Below are positions 1-9,967 of a stretch of 64,000 bases of DNA, in pieces; positions within the stretch are counted from its first letter, which is position 1; the number at the start of each line of letters is the position of its first letter. The stretch is from Microbacterium aerolatum (GTDB lineage Bacteria > Actinomycetota > Actinomycetes > Actinomycetales > Microbacteriaceae): contig NZ_BJUW01000001.1 in the NCBI RefSeq assembly GCF_007988825.1, positions 124,001 through 188,000 of the forward strand, written 5' to 3'. The translations under genes and the position numbers were made by a program. The notes below the pieces were generated by a model. It worked only from the letters and a program-made list of their open reading frames with translations, had not been told where the DNA came from and ran no database searches.

Positions 1-1
1 T

Positions 2-88
2 GTCGTCATCGATGACGTGCCTGCAGACGTCACCGTCGTCGGTGTGCCTGCACGCCAGATCCGATCTAGGCGGGAAGGACGACGATGA
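2..88 (+). CDS. C-terminal end of a hexapeptide (NeuD/LegH-type) acetyltransferase, partial
   Basis: Only the last 28 residues are in the window. They contain VVIDDVPADVTVVGVPAR, which is the typical exit from a left-handed beta-helix acyltransferase (a valine-rich coil followed by GxPAR). The stop codon (86-88) overlaps the ATG of the next gene (85-87) in an ATGA, so the two are translationally coupled. The neighbours are a CBS-nucleotidyltransferase and a CMP-sugar synthetase, so a sialic-acid or legionaminic-acid type N- or O-acetyltransferase is the likeliest identity. That is inferred from context, because the catalytic part lies outside the window. Confidence 0.6.
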   Translation, partial: VVIDDVPADVTVVGVPARQIRSRREGRR

Positions 89-1128
89 CTGCGCACTCTG
101 ATCTGTCCGTGAGCCCGAGCACCAGCATCCGCGACTCCCTCGCGCAGCTCGACCGCAGCCGGCTGCAAGTCGTGTTCGTCGAGGATGCAGCGGGGAAGCT
201 GGTGGGTGCGGTCAGTGACGGCGACATCCGCAGAGGCCTCCTCCGCGGGATCGGTTTGGACGATCGCGTGGAACGGGTGATGAACCCGAATCCGGCGACG
301 GTTCTGCCGACAGCCAGCCAGGAATCGGTCGATGACCTGAAGGCACGGCGAGGCATCCGCGTCGTCGCGGTCGTCGATGACGGCCATATCATCGACGTCA
401 TCGGAGAAGGGGAACGGATCGCAACTCCGCTACCCACGCCAGTCGTTCTGATGGCCGGGGGTCGAGGTCAACGGCTCTATCCGATCACGAAGGACATTCC
501 GAAACCGCTCGTGCCCCTGGGCGACGTGCCCATGATCGACATCATCCTGAGCCGTCTGCACGATCAAGGTTTCCGACGCGTTCATGTGTCAGTGAACCAT
601 CTCGGACATCTCATCGAGGAGCATCTCGGTGACGGCAGCGAACGTGGCCTGGAGATCACTTATCTGCATGAGTCCACACCGCTCGGGACAGCCGGTGCGA
701 TGGCGCAGCTTCGGGGCGAAGTCGAACGTCCCTTCGTGGTGATGAATTCGGATCTGTTGACGGACGTCGACCTGCGGAGGATGCTTGCTGTGCATGAGAG
801 CTCCCAAGCCGCCGCGACGATCGGAGCACGGGAGTATGGATTCGAGATCCCCTTCGGGGTGATCCGACGCGAAGGTCATCGTGTGACCGGTCTCGCGGAG
901 AAGCCCTACCACAGTGAACTGGTCAGTGCAGGTATCTATGTGCTCGATCCCGCGGCGCTGACGCTGCTGGCAAAGGACGAGTACTGCGATATGCCGACCC
1001 TTCTTGCGCGCATGATGGAGAGCGACCGCCTTGTCACGGCGTTCGAGATCCATGAGGAATGGATAGACGTCGGTCGCCCTGAGGACCTGGAGCGCGCCAG
1101 ACTGGCGTGGGAACGGAGCACACGATGA
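85..1128 (+). CDS. ptmE: CBS-domain sugar-1-phosphate nucleotidyltransferase, PtmE-like
   Basis: The protein has 347 residues. The first ~115 form two CBS-like repeats (VGAVSDGDIRRGLL near 40-53, then a weaker second repeat). Residues from ~120 form an NTP-transferase domain with the pyrophosphorylase loop MAGGRGQRLYPITKDIPKPL and a later GTAGAM motif. This CBS plus nucleotidyltransferase layout is that of Campylobacter PtmE, the glucosamine-1-phosphate guanylyltransferase that starts the GDP-linked legionaminic acid pathway. It sits between an acetyltransferase end and a CMP-nonulosonate synthetase and overlaps both by 4 bp (ATGA), which fits that role. The nucleotide (GTP or another) cannot be read from sequence alone. 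A generic mannose-1-phosphate guanylyltransferase-like role remains possible. Confidence 0.72.
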   Translation: MTAHSDLSVSPSTSIRDSLAQLDRSRLQVVFVEDAAGKLVGAVSDGDIRRGLLRGIGLDDRVERVMNPNPATVLPTASQESVDDLKARRGIRVVAVVDDGHIIDVIGEGERIATPLPTPVVLMAGGRGQRLYPITKDIPKPLVPLGDVPMIDIILSRLHDQGFRRVHVSVNHLGHLIEEHLGDGSERGLEITYLHESTPLGTAGAMAQLRGEVERPFVVMNSDLLTDVDLRRMLAVHESSQAAATIGAREYGFEIPFGVIRREGHRVTGLAEKPYHSELVSAGIYVLDPAALTLLAKDEYCDMPTLLARMMESDRLVTAFEIHEEWIDVGRPEDLERARLAWERSTR

Positions 1129-1823
1129 GGATCTGCACGATCACTGTGAGAGGCGGATCGAAAGGCGTCCCGAGGAAGAACCTGCGAGTCGTCGCGGGGA
1201 AGCCGCTGTTCGGGCATTCGGTCGCGCAGGCCGTCGCCACTGGTCTCTTCGATGAGGTCGTTGTCTCGAGCGACTCCGAGGAGATTCTCGCCCTGGCCCC
1301 TGAATTCGGCGCCACGGGAATCGTGCATCGCCCCGCGGAGATGGCGAGCGACACTGCCGGGAAGGTGCCCGCCATCGCGCACGCGGTGAGGATGACGGAG
1401 CAGAGACTGGGTCTGAGTTTCGACGTCTGCGTCGATCTCGACGCCACCAGCCCGTTGCGCACTGTGGACGACATCCGAACCGCGGTCGAGATGTTCGAGG
1501 AGTCCGATGCCGAATCTCTCATCACGGGGGCTGAGGCTCGACGCAATCCCTACTTCAACCTTGTTGAAGAACAGCCAGATGGCACGGTTGCCGTCAGCAA
1601 GAAACCTGACGATGCTGTGCTCCGACGTCAGGATGCACCTCGCTGCTTCGACATGAACGGTTCGATCTACGTCTGGCGACGTGACTCGCTCCTTGAGGGC
1701 CAGGTCGTCTTCTTCCCGTCGACGATTCTGTACGAGATGCCTGCGGAGCGCTCCACCGACGTGGACAGCGAGTTCGACTTCCGCATCGTCGAATGGCTGA
1801 TGGGAACGCGAGATGACCTGTGA
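1125..1823 (+). CDS. neuA: CMP-nonulosonate synthetase (acylneuraminate cytidylyltransferase family)
   Basis: This 232-residue protein should activate a sialic-acid-like sugar with CTP, giving the CMP-sugar donor. It starts close to a nucleotide-binding loop (TVRGGSKGVPRKNLRVVAGK) that is the family signature, although the usual I-x-A-R is here TVRGG. The motif DLDATSPLRTVDDI near residue 105 is the second family signature. ATG 1125 overlaps the previous stop, and a GGAG lies upstream; an in-frame start at 1107 has less support. With the PtmE-like gene next door, legionaminic acid (LegF role) is the more likely substrate than N-acetylneuraminic acid. The sugar itself is inference. Confidence 0.82.
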   Translation: MRICTITVRGGSKGVPRKNLRVVAGKPLFGHSVAQAVATGLFDEVVVSSDSEEILALAPEFGATGIVHRPAEMASDTAGKVPAIAHAVRMTEQRLGLSFDVCVDLDATSPLRTVDDIRTAVEMFEESDAESLITGAEARRNPYFNLVEEQPDGTVAVSKKPDDAVLRRQDAPRCFDMNGSIYVWRRDSLLEGQVVFFPSTILYEMPAERSTDVDSEFDFRIVEWLMGTRDDL

Positions 1824-3277
1824 GTGAGGACTCGAGAGATCTCGAGGCTCGCACATCCGCCGCAGTGCGCGCCATCCTTGATCTGGAGAATGAAGCTCCT
1901 GACGCGCTGCTGGAGATATTGCCCGGCACGACCGTTCCATTCTGGGCGCAAGTTCGTGTGCAGATAGCGTGGGCACTCTCGCAGCAGCAGACGGGTAGCG
2001 TGGCGGTCGCCTCGACTGCTACTTGGTCCCGATGGGGCGAGGCGAAACGCGTCGCCCGTGGATATCTGCCCAGTCGATGGGATGCGGTTCGGCGCGCGAC
2101 ATCCCACGACGTGTGTTTTTATGTTTCCGGCGTCACTCTGTCCGCGACTCAGGGACGTGCTCGCAATTGGCTCGTCGACGACTTCGCAGAAGCGACCAGC
2201 GACGCGGTTGTGGTGCAGCTTCTCCCGCTGCCGTCTTCAGTCGGCCGGCCCGCATTCCGACCAACTCTCACCATGGAGCCTGCGACTGCGCGCTCACGAT
2301 GGCGGGAGAGAGGCACGACCATCGCCCCGGGGTATGAGACAGCAGTGCATTCGCTCCTTGCTGAATACGCAAGGCGACTCGATCAGCCGGATGACGCTTT
2401 CGCGGCAATCGGCCAGCGTGCGCTTCGCAACGAGAAGCTCCGACCGTTTCAACTTGATGAACTACACCGGATGCTGGATCGGATGCGGCCCAGTCTGGTG
2501 TTCTACGACAACGGTTCATACACATACAACGGTGAATCCTTGGGATTGATGAAGGATGCCGGCGCGTACGTGGTGGAGCCGCAACACGGCTGGATCGGGC
2601 CCTCCCACGCCGCGTACAACTTCGGACGAGTCTTCGAGGATCCGTCGCTACGCCGCGCGCTTCCTGACGAGCTTTTGACTTTCGGCGAGTACTGGTCCGA
2701 GTCGATCCGTCACCCCGGACGTGTGACAGCGATCGGGAAGCCACACCTCGAGCGTCAGGCTGCTTCGGCCGAGACGACACGTCCGAAGCAGATTCTCGTG
2801 GTTTCGTCGCGTACCGATCCCGCGCGCACCGATGCATTCGTCGTCGACCTTCATCACGCCGTCGGCGCCGATTGGGCGATCGCCTTTCGGCCGCATCCTG
2901 GCGAACGCGCCGAATCGGCGCGACGCTACCCGAGGCTCTCCTCGACGCCGGGAATTACAATCGACACCGAGCCCGATGTCTACGAGTCGCTGAAACGCAC
3001 GGCCGTTGTCATCGGCGAGGCGAGTACCGTGCTTTTCGAAGCCCGCGCGTTCGGATGCGAAGTGATTCCACGCGAAAGTGCTTTCGCAGAGACTGTGATC
3101 GGCGATGCATTCGGGCCAAGAGTAACCGAGGTGGAAGAGACGGCAACGCGTCTGCAGACGCTGGTCGGTGGTCAGGAGATGGCCGCCGTGTCGGATCCTC
3201 GGATCTGGGCACCGGACGCGGTCGGCACATACACCCGATGGCTTGTTGAGCGGCACCACGAGCGGGTGGTCGAGTGA
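1820..3277 (+). CDS. Putative polysaccharide glycosyltransferase with HP and S/T motifs; candidate nonulosonate transferase
   Basis: The protein has 485 residues, a GTG start overlapping the previous stop (GTGA), and no signal peptide or obvious membrane helix. I do not recognise the family with certainty. The C-terminal half looks like the second Rossmann domain of a GT-B enzyme: FRPHPGE places an HP pair at H359-P360, and GEASTVLFEARAFG places S402-T403 about 43 residues later. Bacterial sialyltransferases carry an HP motif and a downstream S-S/T motif that bind CMP-sugar, and the gene directly follows a CMP-sugar synthetase. TagF/capsule-type glycerophosphotransferases have similar HP and serine motifs, so that alternative is open. 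A central stretch, VEPQHGWIGPSHAAYN (near 253), may be part of the acceptor or catalytic site. Confidence 0.5.
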   Translation: MSEDSRDLEARTSAAVRAILDLENEAPDALLEILPGTTVPFWAQVRVQIAWALSQQQTGSVAVASTATWSRWGEAKRVARGYLPSRWDAVRRATSHDVCFYVSGVTLSATQGRARNWLVDDFAEATSDAVVVQLLPLPSSVGRPAFRPTLTMEPATARSRWRERGTTIAPGYETAVHSLLAEYARRLDQPDDAFAAIGQRALRNEKLRPFQLDELHRMLDRMRPSLVFYDNGSYTYNGESLGLMKDAGAYVVEPQHGWIGPSHAAYNFGRVFEDPSLRRALPDELLTFGEYWSESIRHPGRVTAIGKPHLERQAASAETTRPKQILVVSSRTDPARTDAFVVDLHHAVGADWAIAFRPHPGERAESARRYPRLSSTPGITIDTEPDVYESLKRTAVVIGEASTVLFEARAFGCEVIPRESAFAETVIGDAFGPRVTEVEETATRLQTLVGGQEMAAVSDPRIWAPDAVGTYTRWLVERHHERVVE

Positions 3278-3371: not shown

Positions 3372-4322
3372 ATGAGTGGGCCCGTGACTGACACCCGAGA
3401 AATATTCGCCGCCATCCCGCGCAGTCACTTCGACACCCCCGGCAAGAGCCGCGGTCTCATCGATGTGATCCGCTGGCGGTATCTGTTGAACCTGCTCGTG
3501 CGCACCGGTGTGACGACCCGCTACCGCAACTCTGTGCTGGGGTGGACATGGTCCTATGTGCGGCCAGCCGCCCAGTTCCTGGTCTTCTGGGTCGTACTGG
3601 GGCTTTTCATGAACCTCGATCGCGGCATCCCGAATTACGCGGTCTACCTGTTTTCCGGGATCGTGGTGATTAACCTCTTCACAGAAGGATTCAAGAACGC
3701 CACGACGTCCATAGTCGGGAATGCGCCCCTCGTACGCAAGGTGTTCCTTCCGCGTCAGCTCTTCGCCGTGTCGGCGGTAGTCGTCGCGTTCGTCCACTTC
3801 CTCCCTCAGGTGGGACTTCTGCTGATCGTCTGCCTTCTCCTGGGGTGGATCACGCACGTGACAATCGTCTCCGTTTTGGCGATTCTCGCTGGCATGCTGA
3901 TCGTGATGACCTTCTCGCTTGGGCTCGGGCTGTTCTTCGGTGCCATCAACGTCCGCTTCCGAGACGCGGAGAACATCGTCGAACTGATGCTCCTGCTTGC
4001 GACGTGGGCATCGCCGGTGCTCTATTCGTGGACCCAAGTGCAGGATGCCGTCGTCGAGACGCTCGGCTGGCCACAATGGCTAGTCGAGATATACCTGTTG
4101 AACCCCATCACGCAGGGCGTGGAACTTTTCCACTACGCGTTCTGGCGCCCGGCGACCGAGGGGATGACCTCGGCGTCCGGCTATGCAGGAGCACAATTGA
4201 TGGACTTGCCGCCTGGGCTCGCGTGGAACACCCTTTGGACGTTCCTCATCGCCGCCGCCACTCTGCTGCTCGGACAGATGGTTTTCCGGCGATTGGAAGG
4301 AAGGTTTGCACAAGACCTATGA
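3372..4322 (+). CDS. wzm: ABC-2 type polysaccharide export permease (Wzm/TagG/KpsM family), first copy
   Basis: This 316-residue protein has about six predicted membrane segments. The N-terminal amphipathic stretch VIRWRYLLNLLVRTGVTTRY leads into GWTWSYVRPAAQFLVFWVV, a pattern typical of ABC-2 polysaccharide permeases. The late VEIYLLNPITQGVELF segment is also a family feature. It should form the membrane channel that moves a lipid-linked glycan out of the cytoplasm, together with the ATPase encoded immediately downstream (ATGA overlap). ATG 3372 has no strong ribosome binding site, and GTG 3384 is a possible alternative start. Its substrate is probably the glycan made by the surrounding sugar genes. 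Confidence 0.85.
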   Translation: MSGPVTDTREIFAAIPRSHFDTPGKSRGLIDVIRWRYLLNLLVRTGVTTRYRNSVLGWTWSYVRPAAQFLVFWVVLGLFMNLDRGIPNYAVYLFSGIVVINLFTEGFKNATTSIVGNAPLVRKVFLPRQLFAVSAVVVAFVHFLPQVGLLLIVCLLLGWITHVTIVSVLAILAGMLIVMTFSLGLGLFFGAINVRFRDAENIVELMLLLATWASPVLYSWTQVQDAVVETLGWPQWLVEIYLLNPITQGVELFHYAFWRPATEGMTSASGYAGAQLMDLPPGLAWNTLWTFLIAAATLLLGQMVFRRLEGRFAQDL

Positions 4323-5056
4323 GTGAGCAGACGGCGATCAGACCCAGCGTCATCATCGACGGCGTGCGCAAACGATTCACGTTGAATCACGCTTTTTCCC
4401 TGAAGGACACGGTCGTGTCGTGGATGAAGCGGCGCAAGCTCACGAGCGAGTTCGAGGCGCTAAAGGGCATCGATCTGGTAGTTGGCGAGGGAGAGTCTCT
4501 GGCGATCCTCGGATTCAACGGATCTGGGAAGTCGACACTGCTCAAGCTCGTCTCAGGTGTAATGGAGCCGGACGAAGGGCAGGTGCTCACAAGAGGGCGG
4601 GTCGCCGGTCTCATCGAGGTCGGGGCGGGGTTCCATCCCGAGCTGTCCGGCCGCGAGAACGTCTTCCTCAACGCTGCGATCCTGGGTATGAAGAAGCATG
4701 AGATCGAGGCACGGTATGACGAGATCGTCGCGTTCAGCGAGATCGAGGCGTTCATCGATCAGGAAGTAAAGCACTATTCGTCCGGCATGTTCATGCGGCT
4801 GGCTTTCTCCGTCGCTATCCACGTCGAGCTCGATGTCTTGCTCGTCGACGAGATCCTCTCGGTCGGCGATGCACCGTTCCGCGAGAAATGTCGGCTGAAG
4901 TTCGAGGAGCTCATCGCGCAGGGGAAAACACTCATCGTGGTCAGTCACGACATGGACATGATCCGCGAGCTGTGCAGCCGCGGAGTCGTGATCAACAAGG
5001 GCGAGCTCATTTATGACGGTGACATCGCGGGCGCAATCGCGCTGGTGGACGCGTGA
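4319..5056 (+). CDS. wzt: Polysaccharide ABC exporter ATPase (Wzt/TagH type), first copy
   Basis: The protein has 245 residues. Walker A is GFNGSGKST, the signature loop is YSSGMFMRLAFSV and Walker B is VLLVDEILSVGD, all in Wzt/TagH-like form. Translation starts at ATG 4319, inside the stop of the permease gene. The length ends after the nucleotide-binding domain, so it lacks the C-terminal carbohydrate-recognition domain found in Wzt proteins that check O-antigen chain ends. It powers export through the preceding permease. The next gene starts at GTG 5053 within its stop codon, so the cluster is co-translated. Confidence 0.88.
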   Translation: MSEQTAIRPSVIIDGVRKRFTLNHAFSLKDTVVSWMKRRKLTSEFEALKGIDLVVGEGESLAILGFNGSGKSTLLKLVSGVMEPDEGQVLTRGRVAGLIEVGAGFHPELSGRENVFLNAAILGMKKHEIEARYDEIVAFSEIEAFIDQEVKHYSSGMFMRLAFSVAIHVELDVLLVDEILSVGDAPFREKCRLKFEELIAQGKTLIVVSHDMDMIRELCSRGVVINKGELIYDGDIAGAIALVDA

Positions 5057-6975
5057 TTGTCGACTGGCTGGCACAGACGCCGGCCCTGGTGGTAGCCGGG
5101 CTCGTTGTATCCGCCCCAGGTCTCTTGGCGCTCTTCGGCGCAGGCCTGCGGGGACTGGCGCTCGGCGCCTTCGCTCCAGTTTTCAGCATCGCAGCGACGG
5201 CGATCGCGGCGTTGGTGTTCGGTCAGGTGGGCTTGCCTTGGTCGCCGTTGACGTGGGTTCTCGCGATGCTGGTCTTCGTAGCGGTCGCGTGGCTCGTCGG
5301 CCGGATGCTCGGACCAGCTCCGACCGAGAGCGCGGACTTGCGTTGGGTGCTCGTGTTCGGGCTCTTCTTAGGAGCGTTGTTCGCAGGATGGCGCCTGATC
5401 TCCTATATCAGCGACCCAGACGGAATCTCGCAGACCAACGACGCGGTGTTCCATATGAACGCGGTCCGCTACATTCTCGAGACCACTGACGCTTCATCAA
5501 TGCACGTGAACGCCGTCATCGGTGGGCGAAGTTTCTACCCCGCTGCCTGGCACGGTGTGACTGCCCTCATCGTCATGGCGACCGGTGTGAGCATTCCCGT
5601 GGCCGCCAACATCTTCACCGTAGTGATCGGGGCCGTCATCTGGCCGCTCGGGATCGCGTGGCTCGCCCGCAGTGTGTTCCGATCCGATGTCGTAGCTGGG
5701 TATGCGGCGGTCCTCGCCAGCGCTCTGCAAGCGTTTCCCTTGCTGATGTTCCAATGGGGTGTGCTGTTTCCGAACGCGCTGTCGACAGCACTTGTGCCAG
5801 CGGCTCTGGCAATGGTCGTTTCAGGTTCGTCGTGGGTACGTGAGAGCGCCCGTTGGGAGGGGTGGGTGCGTCTCGGCCTATTCACGCTCGTCGCGGCGGC
5901 TGCGCTCCTGCTCGCACAGCCGGCGGCCTTCCTGCCGTGGGCTGCGATGAGCGTCGTGTGGTTGTCGTACGCCGTAGTCAAGCATGCTGAGATGCTTGGC
6001 ATAGCCCGAGCACTCATGATCGTCACAGCAGCATGGGTTGTTCTCACGCTCGTTTGGGTCTACCTCGCCCGAGGCACTTCTGGATCGCACTGGCCGCCTT
6101 TCCGGAACAAGTTCGAGGCTCTCTTCGATGTGCTCCTCAACGGTCAGGTGCGGATGCCGATTGCCCTCGCCATCAGCGTGCTGATGCTCGTCGGTCTCGC
6201 TGTCACCATCCGGCGACGTGAGCTGCGCTGGTTCGCCGTGTCTTGGGCTGGCATCTCCCTGCTGTACGTGCTGGTTGCCGCGGTAGGGAACGCATTTGTC
6301 CGGGAGAGCATCTTGGGCGCTTGGTACGCGGATCCGTATCGGATCGCCGCACTCGCTCCGATCGCTGCAATACCGCTTGCCGCGCTGGGACTGGATGCCC
6401 TCATTCATTTTTTCGCACGTCGTTTTGGCAGGAAGGAGCGCGCTTTCGCCGTTGCGTTGGCGGGGCTGTGTGCGTCCGTGGTCGTCATGATCGTCATCGT
6501 GTGCTTCCGTGGAGTCGCCATGCCGGCGTTCCTGGAGGCGACGTTCGACCGCGAGTCACGCTACCTCGCCGCTTCTGATGCCTACCTTAATCCCGACGAA
6601 CGTGCACTTCTGGAAGAGTTGCCCGACCTTGTCGATGAAGACCAGCGCGTCCTTGGGAACCCCTCGACCGGAGCGGGATTCGGGTATGTTCTGAGCGGCC
6701 TCGATGTTTACCCCCGTACATGGTCTCCGCCCAAATCCGACGCGTGGGCGGAGATTGCGGAACGTCTTCGCGAGGCAGGGCAGGAGGACTCCGTCTGCGA
6801 GGCTCTAGAGGTGTACGGCGACCCGGCGTATGTCTTGGATTTCGGTCCGAGCGGCGTTGGACCGGGGAAGTACCCCGCGCCGGGAATGACTGACTTCGAT
6901 GGGCAGGACGGATTCGAGTTGGTTGCGCGCGAGGGTGCCGCGTCTCTCTGGCGTATCACGGCGTGCGCGCGGTGA
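5053..6975 (+). CDS. Large multi-pass membrane protein, DUF6541-like, possible GT-C or polymer-processing role
   Basis: The protein has 640 residues. The first ~490 residues hold at least a dozen hydrophobic segments, and the final ~150 residues form a hydrophilic extracytoplasmic-type domain (EATFDRESRYLAASDAYL onward). The layout, with short loops early and a soluble tail, resembles actinobacterial DUF6541 proteins found next to cell-wall glycosyltransferase genes, and loosely GT-C enzymes. The first external loop contains the acidic and aromatic stretch SDPDGISQTNDAVFHMNAVR (near 115-135), placed where GT-C enzymes keep catalytic acids. Function is not established. The downstream GT2 could make the polyprenyl-phosphate sugar donor it would need. 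Confidence 0.6.
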   Translation: MIVDWLAQTPALVVAGLVVSAPGLLALFGAGLRGLALGAFAPVFSIAATAIAALVFGQVGLPWSPLTWVLAMLVFVAVAWLVGRMLGPAPTESADLRWVLVFGLFLGALFAGWRLISYISDPDGISQTNDAVFHMNAVRYILETTDASSMHVNAVIGGRSFYPAAWHGVTALIVMATGVSIPVAANIFTVVIGAVIWPLGIAWLARSVFRSDVVAGYAAVLASALQAFPLLMFQWGVLFPNALSTALVPAALAMVVSGSSWVRESARWEGWVRLGLFTLVAAAALLLAQPAAFLPWAAMSVVWLSYAVVKHAEMLGIARALMIVTAAWVVLTLVWVYLARGTSGSHWPPFRNKFEALFDVLLNGQVRMPIALAISVLMLVGLAVTIRRRELRWFAVSWAGISLLYVLVAAVGNAFVRESILGAWYADPYRIAALAPIAAIPLAALGLDALIHFFARRFGRKERAFAVALAGLCASVVVMIVIVCFRGVAMPAFLEATFDRESRYLAASDAYLNPDERALLEELPDLVDEDQRVLGNPSTGAGFGYVLSGLDVYPRTWSPPKSDAWAEIAERLREAGQEDSVCEALEVYGDPAYVLDFGPSGVGPGKYPAPGMTDFDGQDGFELVAREGAASLWRITACAR

Positions 6976-8131: not shown

Positions 8132-9363
8132 CCGCGCCCCGGCTCCTTATCGCCTCTCGCTTGTATCCGCCCGAGGTGAGCGCCGGATCGTTCCGGCTGG
8201 GAGCGCTGGGCCGTGCGCTCGCCAGAGCGGGTGCCTCGGTGCGGGTTCTCACCACGGTGCCACCCGCGCACGCGCCGGCGGGACAGAATGAGCGGGACGT
8301 CGATGTGCGACGTTGGCCAGTGCTTCGCGACTCCGGCGGCAATGTGCGCGGCTACGTCCAGTACCTGAGCTTCGACGCTCCGCTTCTTCTGCGCATGCTC
8401 TTCACCCGCTACGACGTCGCTGTGGCGGAATCGCCGCCGACGACGGGTCTTGTCGTCGGGATCGCGAGCGCATTGCGGCGCCGTCCGTTCGCGTACTACG
8501 CCGCCGATGTCTGGACCGACGGGGTCATTTCGATGGGTGCGCCGCGATTCGTGGTGAGCGTTATGCGTATGATCGAGCGGGCTGTGCTCCGACGCGCACG
8601 CACAGTCATCTCGGTATCGGACGAGGTGACTGAACGACTACTGGTGCTCGACGCAGATCCGGCGCGCATCGCCACTGTAGGCAACGGCATTGACACAGAT
8701 ATCTTCTCGCCGGACGTGGAGCCGATTGCCGACGCGGGGCGCTACCTGATTTACACCGGGACGATGTCGGAGTGGCAACAGCCGGAGATCTTCATCCACG
8801 CGTTCGCCAGGATCGCGGCCGACTACCCTGATGTCCGCCTTAAGTTCTTTGGCCAAGGAGTCGTCGAAGCGAGTCTCCGGCGAATCGCGGAGGACATCCT
8901 GCCGGGGCGGGTCGACTTTGGCGGAGTCGTCAGTCCGCAGCTGTCGGCGCGCTGGATCCGCGGAGCAGCGGCATCGCTGGTGAGCATCGTGCCCGGAATC
9001 GGCTATGACTTCGCTCGGCCGACGAAGACGTACGCTGCGGCCGCTGTTGGCACTCCGGTGCTGTTCGCCGGTCCGGCTACGGGCGCGCGCTTGGTGCGCG
9101 ACGGCGGACTTGGACGAGCCGTGACGTTCGACGTTGACGCGGTCGCCGCCGGCATGCTGGACCTGCTGGCGGAGGAGGCCAACGGGACATGCATGCGGCT
9201 CCGGCCTGAACGTGCATCCTGGGCACGCGCTCACGTCTCACTCCACGCCGTCGCCGATCGTGCGGTCGCGGCGATCGCTCAGGCAACCGGCGAGTGGGCG
9301 ACTAAGCTGGTCTCCGGTTCCGCCGACCTCGACTCGGAGCCAGAAAGCCGATCCAGTGACTGA
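8128..9363 (+). CDS. Family 4 glycosyltransferase
   Basis: The protein has 411 residues in a GT-B fold. The N-terminal domain opens with LLIASRLYPPEVSAGSFRLG, a common GT4 beginning with an acceptor-side glycine loop. The C-terminal domain has VGNGIDTDIFSP and then YTGTMSEWQQPE at its start, with a later PTKTYAAAAVGTPV in place of the usual E-x7-E helix. It would transfer a nucleotide-activated sugar to a lipid-linked intermediate in the cytoplasm. The start is GTG 8128, overlapping the DUF2304 stop. Donor and linkage cannot be told from sequence. Confidence 0.8.
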   Translation: MTAPRLLIASRLYPPEVSAGSFRLGALGRALARAGASVRVLTTVPPAHAPAGQNERDVDVRRWPVLRDSGGNVRGYVQYLSFDAPLLLRMLFTRYDVAVAESPPTTGLVVGIASALRRRPFAYYAADVWTDGVISMGAPRFVVSVMRMIERAVLRRARTVISVSDEVTERLLVLDADPARIATVGNGIDTDIFSPDVEPIADAGRYLIYTGTMSEWQQPEIFIHAFARIAADYPDVRLKFFGQGVVEASLRRIAEDILPGRVDFGGVVSPQLSARWIRGAAASLVSIVPGIGYDFARPTKTYAAAAVGTPVLFAGPATGARLVRDGGLGRAVTFDVDAVAAGMLDLLAEEANGTCMRLRPERASWARAHVSLHAVADRAVAAIAQATGEWATKLVSGSADLDSEPESRSSD

Positions 9364-9967
9364 GAATTCCCGCGTGCGGATCGTTGATTCCGCTGATGTT
9401 TCGCCCGATGCCGTCATCGGCGACGGCTCCTCAATTTGGCATCTCGCGCAGGTGCGTGAAGGCGTGCAGATGGGGCAGAACTGCATCGTTGGACGCGGCG
9501 CTTACGTTGGTACCGGCGTCACGATGGGCGACAACTGCAAAGTGCAGAACTACGCGCTTGTGTACGAACCAGCGAAGCTCGCCGACGGCGTATTCATCGG
9601 CCCTGCCGTAGTGCTCACCAACGACACCTACCCGCGCGCCATCAACGCGGACGGCACGCTGAAGAGCGCCCACGATTGGGAACCGGTCGGCGTGACGATC
9701 GAGCGAGGTGCATCGATCGGTGCGCGTGCCACTTGCGTTGCGCCGGTGACGATCGGTGCATGGGCGACGGTCGCTGCGGGCGCTGTCGTCGTGAAGAATG
9801 TCCCCGCACACGCGTTGGTCGTGGGCGTTCCGGCCCGGCGCATCGGGTGGGTCGGCGAAGCAGGCGTCCCCCTGACACCCGATGAAACACCAAACGTCTG
9901 GGTCTGCCCGATCACGGGCGATCGGTACATCGAATCTGCAGGCACTCTGAGCAAGGAGACCGTGTGA
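9356..9967 (+). CDS. wbpD: WbpD-type N-acetyltransferase (left-handed beta-helix)
   Basis: The protein has 203 residues, most of them hexapeptide repeats ([LIV]-G-x4), for example IGDGSSIWHLAQVREGV and IGARATCVAPVTIGAWATV. In the Wbp pathway this enzyme acetylates the 3-amino group of UDP-GlcNAc3NA to give UDP-GlcNAc(3NAc)A. The C-terminal tail VWVCPITGDRYIES is a feature of many WbpD/WlbB relatives. The start is GTG 9356, overlapping the GT4 stop; a longer upstream reading would only repeat the end of that gene in another frame. It lies directly before WbpE- and WbpB-like genes, with GTGA overlap, so function within that trio is strongly suggested. Confidence 0.85.
   Translation: MTENSRVRIVDSADVSPDAVIGDGSSIWHLAQVREGVQMGQNCIVGRGAYVGTGVTMGDNCKVQNYALVYEPAKLADGVFIGPAVVLTNDTYPRAINADGTLKSAHDWEPVGVTIERGASIGARATCVAPVTIGAWATVAAGAVVVKNVPAHALVVGVPARRIGWVGEAGVPLTPDETPNVWVCPITGDRYIESAGTLSKETV

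Follow-up and report, generated by a model that had tools for sequence, protein, structure and literature searches.

In the 64,000-nucleotide stretch of Microbacterium aerolatum DNA analyzed here (hereafter the window), the open reading frame (ORF) at 1820–3277 on the forward strand, which we call Q, starts with GTG, encodes 485 amino acids (aa) and is the last gene of a legionaminic acid (Leg) pathway operon, 5′ of the genes for an ATP-binding cassette (ABC) exporter of the ABC-2 type. With a probability of roughly 60%, we predict that Q transfers nonulosonic acids activated with cytidine monophosphate (CMP), here most likely CMP-legionaminate, and that it belongs to an undescribed glycosyltransferase (GT) family of GT-B fold. 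Genomic association carries most of the weight for a transferase; the donor, acceptor and catalytic base are ones that we infer. This is the best reading because Q co-occurs almost perfectly with the Leg operon, because divergent homologues lie in loci with the pseudaminic acid (Pse) synthase gene PseI, and because a wide profile of the donor domain leans toward GT38 and DUF6716.

Co-occurrence is the best evidence for a transferase. Q was found in 18 of 366 Microbacterium genomes, in 7 of 299 genomes drawn from the family (three of these being short, distant matches) and in 2 of 296 from the class, of which one is a short match. Two alignments were used throughout: a close one (A2) of Q and 21 homologues with 32–69% identity to Q (22 rows), and a wide one (A4) of 13 A2 rows and six distant relatives (19 rows), whose profile found relatives in 5 of 296 phylum genomes. 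LegF, the synthetase encoded directly before Q, occurs at 82–100% identity in 16 of the 366 Microbacterium genomes; 15 of these 16 carry Q, compared with 3 of the 350 in which no such LegF occurs. In those three (G313, G314, and G368) and in two genomes of other genera (G236 and G041), a PseI gene lies 5–19 kb from the Q homologue. The PseI protein exceeds the equivalog cut-off in G314, G368, G236, and G041, and that of G313 shares its first 30 residues with the G314 protein.

Searched for NeuB-family synthases, the 30 genomes that carry Q or a distant relative all gave a match, against 32 of 50 Q-negative Microbacterium genomes. In 28 of the 30, the NeuB gene shares a contig with Q or its relative at a distance of no more than 20 kb; the exceptions are G691, where Q sits on a 10.6 kb contig, and G1164, where the relative is a weak match (6.1e-9) with no nonulosonate-type gene found near it. 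Wherever the homologue is full-length, in 22 of the genomes searched, a NeuB-family gene lies no more than 20 kb away, and the homologue of M. murale (L006), outside the 30-genome set, is also linked to NeuB. Ten NeuB proteins from Q-negative genomes share 31–36% identity with the LegI of this operon. Arrangements vary: two distant relatives stand in tandem directly 3′ of legF in G067 and G204, one abuts NeuB in G081, and one adjoins a cluster matching legF, legI, legB, legC, legH, and legG in G1023; weak relatives lie near NeuB- and synthetase-like genes in G1032 and G1039, and in G111 a complete Leg operon is 10–17 kb from Q. This variety makes simple hitch-hiking in one operon less likely, though all of these are surface-polysaccharide loci, in which any transferase could turn up. 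A 26-row tree did not sort Leg from Pse labels overall (3 changes; 68 and 67 of 500 shuffles were as low), and the 16-row Microbacterium Leg branch alone was clean (support 91/92). Viral contigs searched with A4 gave 14 pattern matches and no relative, and plasmids searched with Q and the distant relative L051 gave no match.

The operon around Q is laid out as follows.

1–88, forward strand: 3′ end of a NeuD/LegH-type acetyltransferase gene (NCBIfam NeuD_NnaD, 201.3 bits, cut-off 160.8); the remainder is outside the window, from L012:19344 onward.
85–1128, forward strand: gene with CBS and nucleotidyltransferase domains (Pfam NTP_transferase 2.6e-43, CBS 2.8e-10), which we take to be PtmE-like.
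1125–1823, forward strand: CMP-nonulosonate synthetase gene, legF (Pfam CTP_transf_3 3.2e-19; NCBIfam PseF 131.4 bits, below the cut-off of 205.7).
1820–3277, forward strand: Q, candidate CMP-nonulosonate transferase of 485 aa (ORF, homologues, AlphaFold2 model, and co-occurrence).
3372–4322, forward strand: ABC-2 permease gene, wzm-like (Pfam ABC2_membrane 9.4e-13).
4319–5056, forward strand: ABC transporter ATPase gene, wzt-like (Pfam ABC_tran 1.8e-18).

Upstream, mostly beyond the window (L012), the order is legB, legC, NeuC-type epimerase, NeuB-type synthase, NeuD-type acetyltransferase, and the CBS-nucleotidyltransferase gene. LegC (493.9 bits, cut-off 420), NeuC_NnaA (364.7, cut-off 235.9), and NeuD_NnaD exceed their NCBIfam cut-offs, and LegB (465.2, cut-off 475) and NeuB_NnaB (394.3, cut-off 399.65) fall slightly below theirs; judged by sequence, the set fits the Leg pathway, and Leg is the predicted product. 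The Leg label of the synthetase rests on this pathway, because its own NCBIfam match is to PseF and below cut-off. Four bases (GTGA) are common to the start of Q and the stop of the synthetase gene, and the same overlap stands at the homologue start in all 16 Microbacterium-type loci checked, the window's own included. No strongly hydrophobic segment is present, the 19-residue Kyte-Doolittle mean peaking at 1.18. A first-pass annotation made from the letters of this DNA had described a soluble protein whose gene overlaps a NeuA/LegF-like synthetase, and both points hold.

Downstream of Q, the permease and ATPase genes are followed by a gene for a DUF6541 protein (Pfam). Teichoic-acid and galactan exporter ATPases are among the top NCBIfam matches of the ATPase, below cut-off. 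The DUF6541 gene (window 5053–6975, Pfam E 4.7e-149) lies 3′ of the exporter genes in all 14 Microbacterium Leg loci with enough sequence, and the Pse loci of both G314 and G368 contain it too. At L041 (G546), legF falls into two open frames, as does ptmE, and both may contain a frameshift or an assembly error; Q remains open. A Microbacterium genome without Q, G448 (L128), has a more diverged Leg-like cluster (legF 44–45%); a neighboring 361-aa protein there (8568–9650) gives a weak A4 match (1.8e-5) and matches no Pfam model.

Within Q, four conserved sites stand out.

2576–2599, forward strand: codons E253–G260, the EPQHGWIG loop, proposed as the catalytic-base site.
2894–2899, forward strand: codons H359–P360, the HP motif (22/22 in A2, 19/19 in A4).
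2975–2977, forward strand: codon D386, proposed ribose-binding acid by analogy with E323 of MhPST (PMC5517516) (22/22 in A2, 13/19 in A4).
3023–3028, forward strand: codons S402–T403, the S-S/T motif (22/22 in A2; in A4, S402 18/19 and T403 17/19).

In the loop, E253, Q255, H256, G257, and W258 are each present in 22 of 22 A2 rows; E253, Q255, and G257 persist in 19 of 19 A4 rows and H256 in 17. E407 is likewise invariant (22/22 and 19/19). HP occurs twice in Q, H359 being conserved in 22 of 22 A2 rows against 12 of 22 for H298. Such dipeptides easily arise at random; those at 359 and 402 are more than chance because they are invariant in homologues down to 32% identity. For MhPST, H291, S339, and T340 are reported to bind the CMP phosphate and E323 the ribose, with E153 proposed as the base (PMC5517516). 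The ribose acid and the serine are 16 residues apart in both proteins (D386–S402 in Q; E323–S339 in MhPST, PMC5517516), and the HP histidine and the serine are 43 residues apart in Q against 48 in MhPST. Q carries the HP and S-S/T motifs of GT38, and their residues are predicted to bind the CMP phosphate. In all, 49 columns are invariant across the 22 A2 sequences, and many of them would probably lie in loops lining the cleft. Residues 1–95 (window 1820–2104) form an N-terminal extension, mostly helical in the model, with invariant E23, P27, W42, and R46; relatives L050–L053 have the extension in outline, and a similar W-P-x-x-R stretch occurs in distant relatives.

Family models were largely silent. 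At an E-value limit of 10, none of the 24,736 Pfam models matched Q, among them PF07388 (GT38), PF20471 (DUF6716), PF04464 (TagF-type), and the models that we take to stand for GT52, GT80, and GT42, nor did anything in NCBIfam, PHROGs, or PADLOC at a limit of 1. A search of Protein Data Bank (PDB) sequences returned two Deg-protease chains only (E 0.79 and 1.8), and the 22-row profile a single PDB match (E 0.53); all were judged to be chance. A distant relative (L052:6535–7989) reaches 19.0 bits against PF07388 (cut-off 23.3), and two proteins of the M. aerolatum genome score 273.8 and 154.9 bits against PF04464. These two TagF-type proteins are neighbors at G000:C1:101708–104202 (L146), about 20 kb 5′ of the window start. 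Two NCBIfam models were considered and set aside, surf_polysacc (11 of 19 A4 rows, best 3.9e-5) and BFO_1060 (4 of 19, best 6e-6), both matching short C-terminal stretches far below cut-off. BFO_1060 gave one sub-cut-off match in 105 phylum genomes, and nothing was found to support a suspected link between it and the nonulosonic acid transferases of T. forsythia.

The donor domain was also compared profile to profile with hhalign. With the distant rows included (A4), the donor domain scored 95.0% against DUF6716, 93.1% against GT38, 65.1% against TagF, 11.8% against NeuC-type epimerases, and 2.8% against GT4, the family profiles having 3, 12, 19, 22, and 22 rows, respectively. The GT38 alignment spans only the block from HP to S-T, and the TagF alignment is longer; the N-terminal half of Q showed no similarity to either profile (0.1% for GT38, 0.4% for TagF). 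The GT38, TagF, and DUF6716 profiles scored below 1% against one another, so profiles this thin miss true GT-B kinship and the order of families is a lean rather than a result. To that extent, the donor domain with its distant relatives leans nearer DUF6716 and GT38 than TagF.

An AlphaFold2 model of Q from 11 sequences (mean predicted local distance difference test score, pLDDT, 83.6; predicted template-modeling score, pTM, 0.84) supports a GT-B fold; residues 61–69 are of low confidence and the first ∼95 residues mostly helical. The whole model matched UDP-GlcNAc 2-epimerases (Z up to 15.7), MurG (15.4), the GT38 polysialyltransferase 5wcn (Z 14.9, root-mean-square deviation, rmsd, 4.0 over 286 residues), and TarL 8va1 (Z 14.7, rmsd 6.1 over 301 residues), values within ∼1 Z and too close for ranking. 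Folded alone (pLDDT 79.8), the donor domain gave similarly mixed matches. Among its best 50, TagF 3l7k ranked 44th and had the highest identity of that set (21%; Z 10.9, rmsd 2.9 over 130 residues), and no GT38 chain appeared; in Foldseek, the donor domain matched GT38 5wcn (E 2.4e-3) and KpsC 8fux (E 2.2e-3). No GT52 or GT80 chain was among the structure matches listed, which excludes nothing. The first-pass annotation had described a GT-B-like protein with H359–P360 and S402–T403 and no clear family assignment; the model agrees with the fold, the residues are those it gave and are invariant in the 22 aligned sequences, and the four databases place Q in no family.

The case against a CMP-nonulosonate transferase begins with linkage itself. 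Because a surface-polysaccharide locus contains several transferases, the donor cannot be read from linkage by itself; the five divergent homologues are tied to Pse genes at the level of the locus only; and Microbacterium genomes that lack Q can have a Pse synthase, since in at least two of them, G326 and G327, the NeuB protein is a true PseI. The strongest genomic argument that Q is not an indispensable Leg transferase comes from G421 (L127, 9110–9940), which retains legB, legC, legG, legI, ptmE, and legF at 72–90% identity, its legF running directly to the permease gene (85.8%); elsewhere in this genome, an A4 search found no more than a weak match (1.2e-7). In G421, then, Leg is either transferred by some other enzyme or put to a different use. 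The locus itself amounts to a natural deletion of Q.

An operon of this kind would also suit Q as another GT of the same Leg polymer, using a UDP-, GDP-, or dTDP-sugar donor (for example, in making the acceptor), with the true Leg transferase encoded elsewhere. UDP enzymes are among the best fold matches throughout, and further GT2- and GT4-like genes lie in the same locus. We nevertheless consider this unlikely: Q is translationally coupled behind the synthetase and does not stand among the other transferases, its relatives turn up repeatedly next to synthetase or synthase genes in loci of differing layout, and the GT4 and epimerase profiles fall far below GT38 and DUF6716 in the wide comparison, though GT4 does better in the close one.

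That close comparison is itself unfavorable to a CMP-nonulosonate transferase. The A2 profile scored 79.7% against TagF, 66.6% against DUF6716, 58.1% against GT38, 35.8% against GT4, and 3.3% against epimerases, so that TagF is the highest of the five families and Q might instead be a TagF/TagB-type enzyme moving a polyol phosphate from a cytidine diphosphate (CDP)-polyol. In the same direction, with the distant rows included the HG(T/V)P region of TagF falls opposite QHG in Q, 3l7k and 8va1 are among the structure matches, and SpsB of B. subtilis is described as a TagB-like protein near Leg genes (PMC7439481). With the distant rows, however, TagF drops behind DUF6716 and GT38, Q is tied to CMP-sugar genes, PF04464 recognizes two proteins of the same genome and not Q, and ORFs of G000:C1:90001–105500, the sole stretch scanned for TagD, contain no TagD-like motif; we regard this assignment as improbable. 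A best match to TagF-type glycerophosphotransferases was the outcome that the first-pass annotation had set against its own proposal: Pfam gives no such match, and TagF does come out highest in this one profile comparison, with a TagF chain near the donor domain.

Two further difficulties concern the residues of Q. D/E-D/E-G, described as going with HP in GT38, GT52, and GT80 (PMC2169525), is missing, no [DE][DE]G occurring anywhere in the Q sequence, and D386 is lost in 6 of 19 A4 rows once distant relatives are added. The nearest stretch, D230-N231-G232, was considered as a stand-in because its distance of 129 residues to HP resembles those in NmB-polyST (125) and MhPST (138). It was dropped as a family-wide base, since column 230 varies (D in 18, E in 2, and Q in 2 of 22 A2 rows; V in 6 of 19 A4 rows).

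Nor does structure comparison single out CMP enzymes or name a donor class. UDP-GlcNAc 2-epimerases at or near the top of the fold lists, a weak Epimerase_2 match in 2 of 22 members (best E 0.093), and the Q-free operon of G421 would all be compatible with a GT-B-fold protein that is no transferase, either epimerase-like or a non-catalytic accessory of the synthetase or exporter. Such a role appears very improbable for Q, given that the operon already has a NeuC-type epimerase well above its cut-off, that epimerase profiles score only 3–12%, and that the 49 invariant columns, many of them probably in cleft loops, are unlike a degenerate partner. The transferase for sialic-acid-like residues proposed in the first-pass annotation is partly supported and is the best reading on co-occurrence and the wide donor-domain profile; against it stand the missing base motif, a Leg operon without Q in G421, and a structure undecided on the donor. 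The wall polymer named there as its product is suggested solely by the adjacent exporter.

Experience with characterized neighbors of Leg and Pse genes cuts both ways. Knock-outs of T. forsythia GtfS (445 aa) and TFUB4_00887 (442 aa) are reported to have lost the Pse and the Leg residue, respectively (PMC6388019); from their description, both resemble Q in soluble size and HP motif and differ in having D/E-D/E-G. Deletion of SpsB, in contrast, left Leg on the B. subtilis spore, a further point against reading function from position, although, as the authors of that study point out, a different enzyme might make up for the loss (PMC7439481). As described there, SpsB is like Q a neighbor of Leg pathway genes with HP motifs, and unlike Q it has a DEG motif (PMC7439481). 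Neighborhood together with HP, which held in T. forsythia and failed for SpsB, therefore predicts function but unreliably, hence the probability given at the outset.

Among families, the GT38 polysialyltransferases (MhPST, 5wcn) share with Q the GT-B fold, the HP and S-T motifs, and the spacing of ribose acid and serine, but Q differs in lacking a PF07388 match, D/E-D/E-G, and profile similarity in the N-terminal half. Q is not shown to belong to GT38, GT52, or GT80. TagF, TagB, and TarL (PF04464) share the GT-B fold and, within the donor domain, positions resembling R-x-H-P and S-S/T; unlike theirs, the context of Q is CMP-sugar rather than CDP-polyol, and PF04464 does not match it. KpsC-type β-Kdo transferases (GT107) and WbbB (GT99) are described as retaining enzymes with a CMP-ulosonate donor, an HP motif, and a QXXXD nucleophile (PMC10148158); KpsC 8fux is in the Foldseek list of the donor domain, and Pfam gives Q no match. 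DUF6716 (PF20471), a family of putative glycosyltransferases encoded near NeuA/NeuB-type genes on contig C6 of the M. aerolatum genome, has the highest wide donor-domain score, from a three-row profile; its name was not found in the open-access literature searched.

The C6 genes form a second nonulosonic acid cluster (L129, G000:C6:4852–10928, reverse strand). It encodes a protein that reads as GT2-like, a GT38 protein scoring 66.7 bits against PF07388 (cut-off 23.3), a synthetase with a fused domain that resembles KDN-9-phosphatase (104.9 bits, cut-off 180), a synthase of the NeuB type at 261 bits (cut-off 399.65), and a DUF6716 protein at 400.8 bits, and by these sequence matches it looks like a Kdn (teichulosonic acid) cluster. 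We presume that its gene contents agree with those of SCO4873–SCO4882 of Streptomyces coelicolor. That range is the teichulosonic acid cluster of the species (PMC13011467). The lineage thus has a recognizable GT38 in one nonulosonic acid cluster, and Q occupies the matching place in the other.

On the reading of Q as a CMP-nonulosonate transferase, a soluble GT-B enzyme would take a nonulosonic acid, here most likely a legionaminic acid, from the CMP-sugar that the preceding synthetase produces. It would attach this residue to a polymer of the surface or wall, probably at a stage when the polymer is lipid-linked and cytoplasmic, and the exporter encoded by the next two genes would carry the modified polymer out. 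By analogy with GT38, the C-terminal domain may bind CMP, its phosphate through H359 and S402–T403 and its ribose through D386. The base that replaces the missing D/E-D/E-G could be a residue in the E253-P-Q-H256-G loop, with transfer by direct displacement. The divergent homologues in pseudaminate-synthase loci would use CMP-Pse. More tentatively, and at slightly under even odds, Q may found a new GT family of the Actinomycetota, acting on Leg in the Microbacterium clade and on Pse elsewhere, with an E-x-Q-H-G base loop and a donor domain like that of GT38 and DUF6716.

Known legionaminic acid transferases are few. According to a review from 2019, the literature and databases then contained no Leg transferase predictions beyond the T. 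forsythia enzymes that it describes (PMC6388019), and Maf4 was later put forward as a putative Leg transferase (PMC9298399). Our search of the open-access literature found no paper joining 'legionaminic acid' and 'Microbacterium'. If the reading is right, Q would be a Leg transferase open to assay, its homologues in Pse loci would form a natural set for donor specificity, and the finding would suggest that some Microbacterium carry Leg on their surface polymers.

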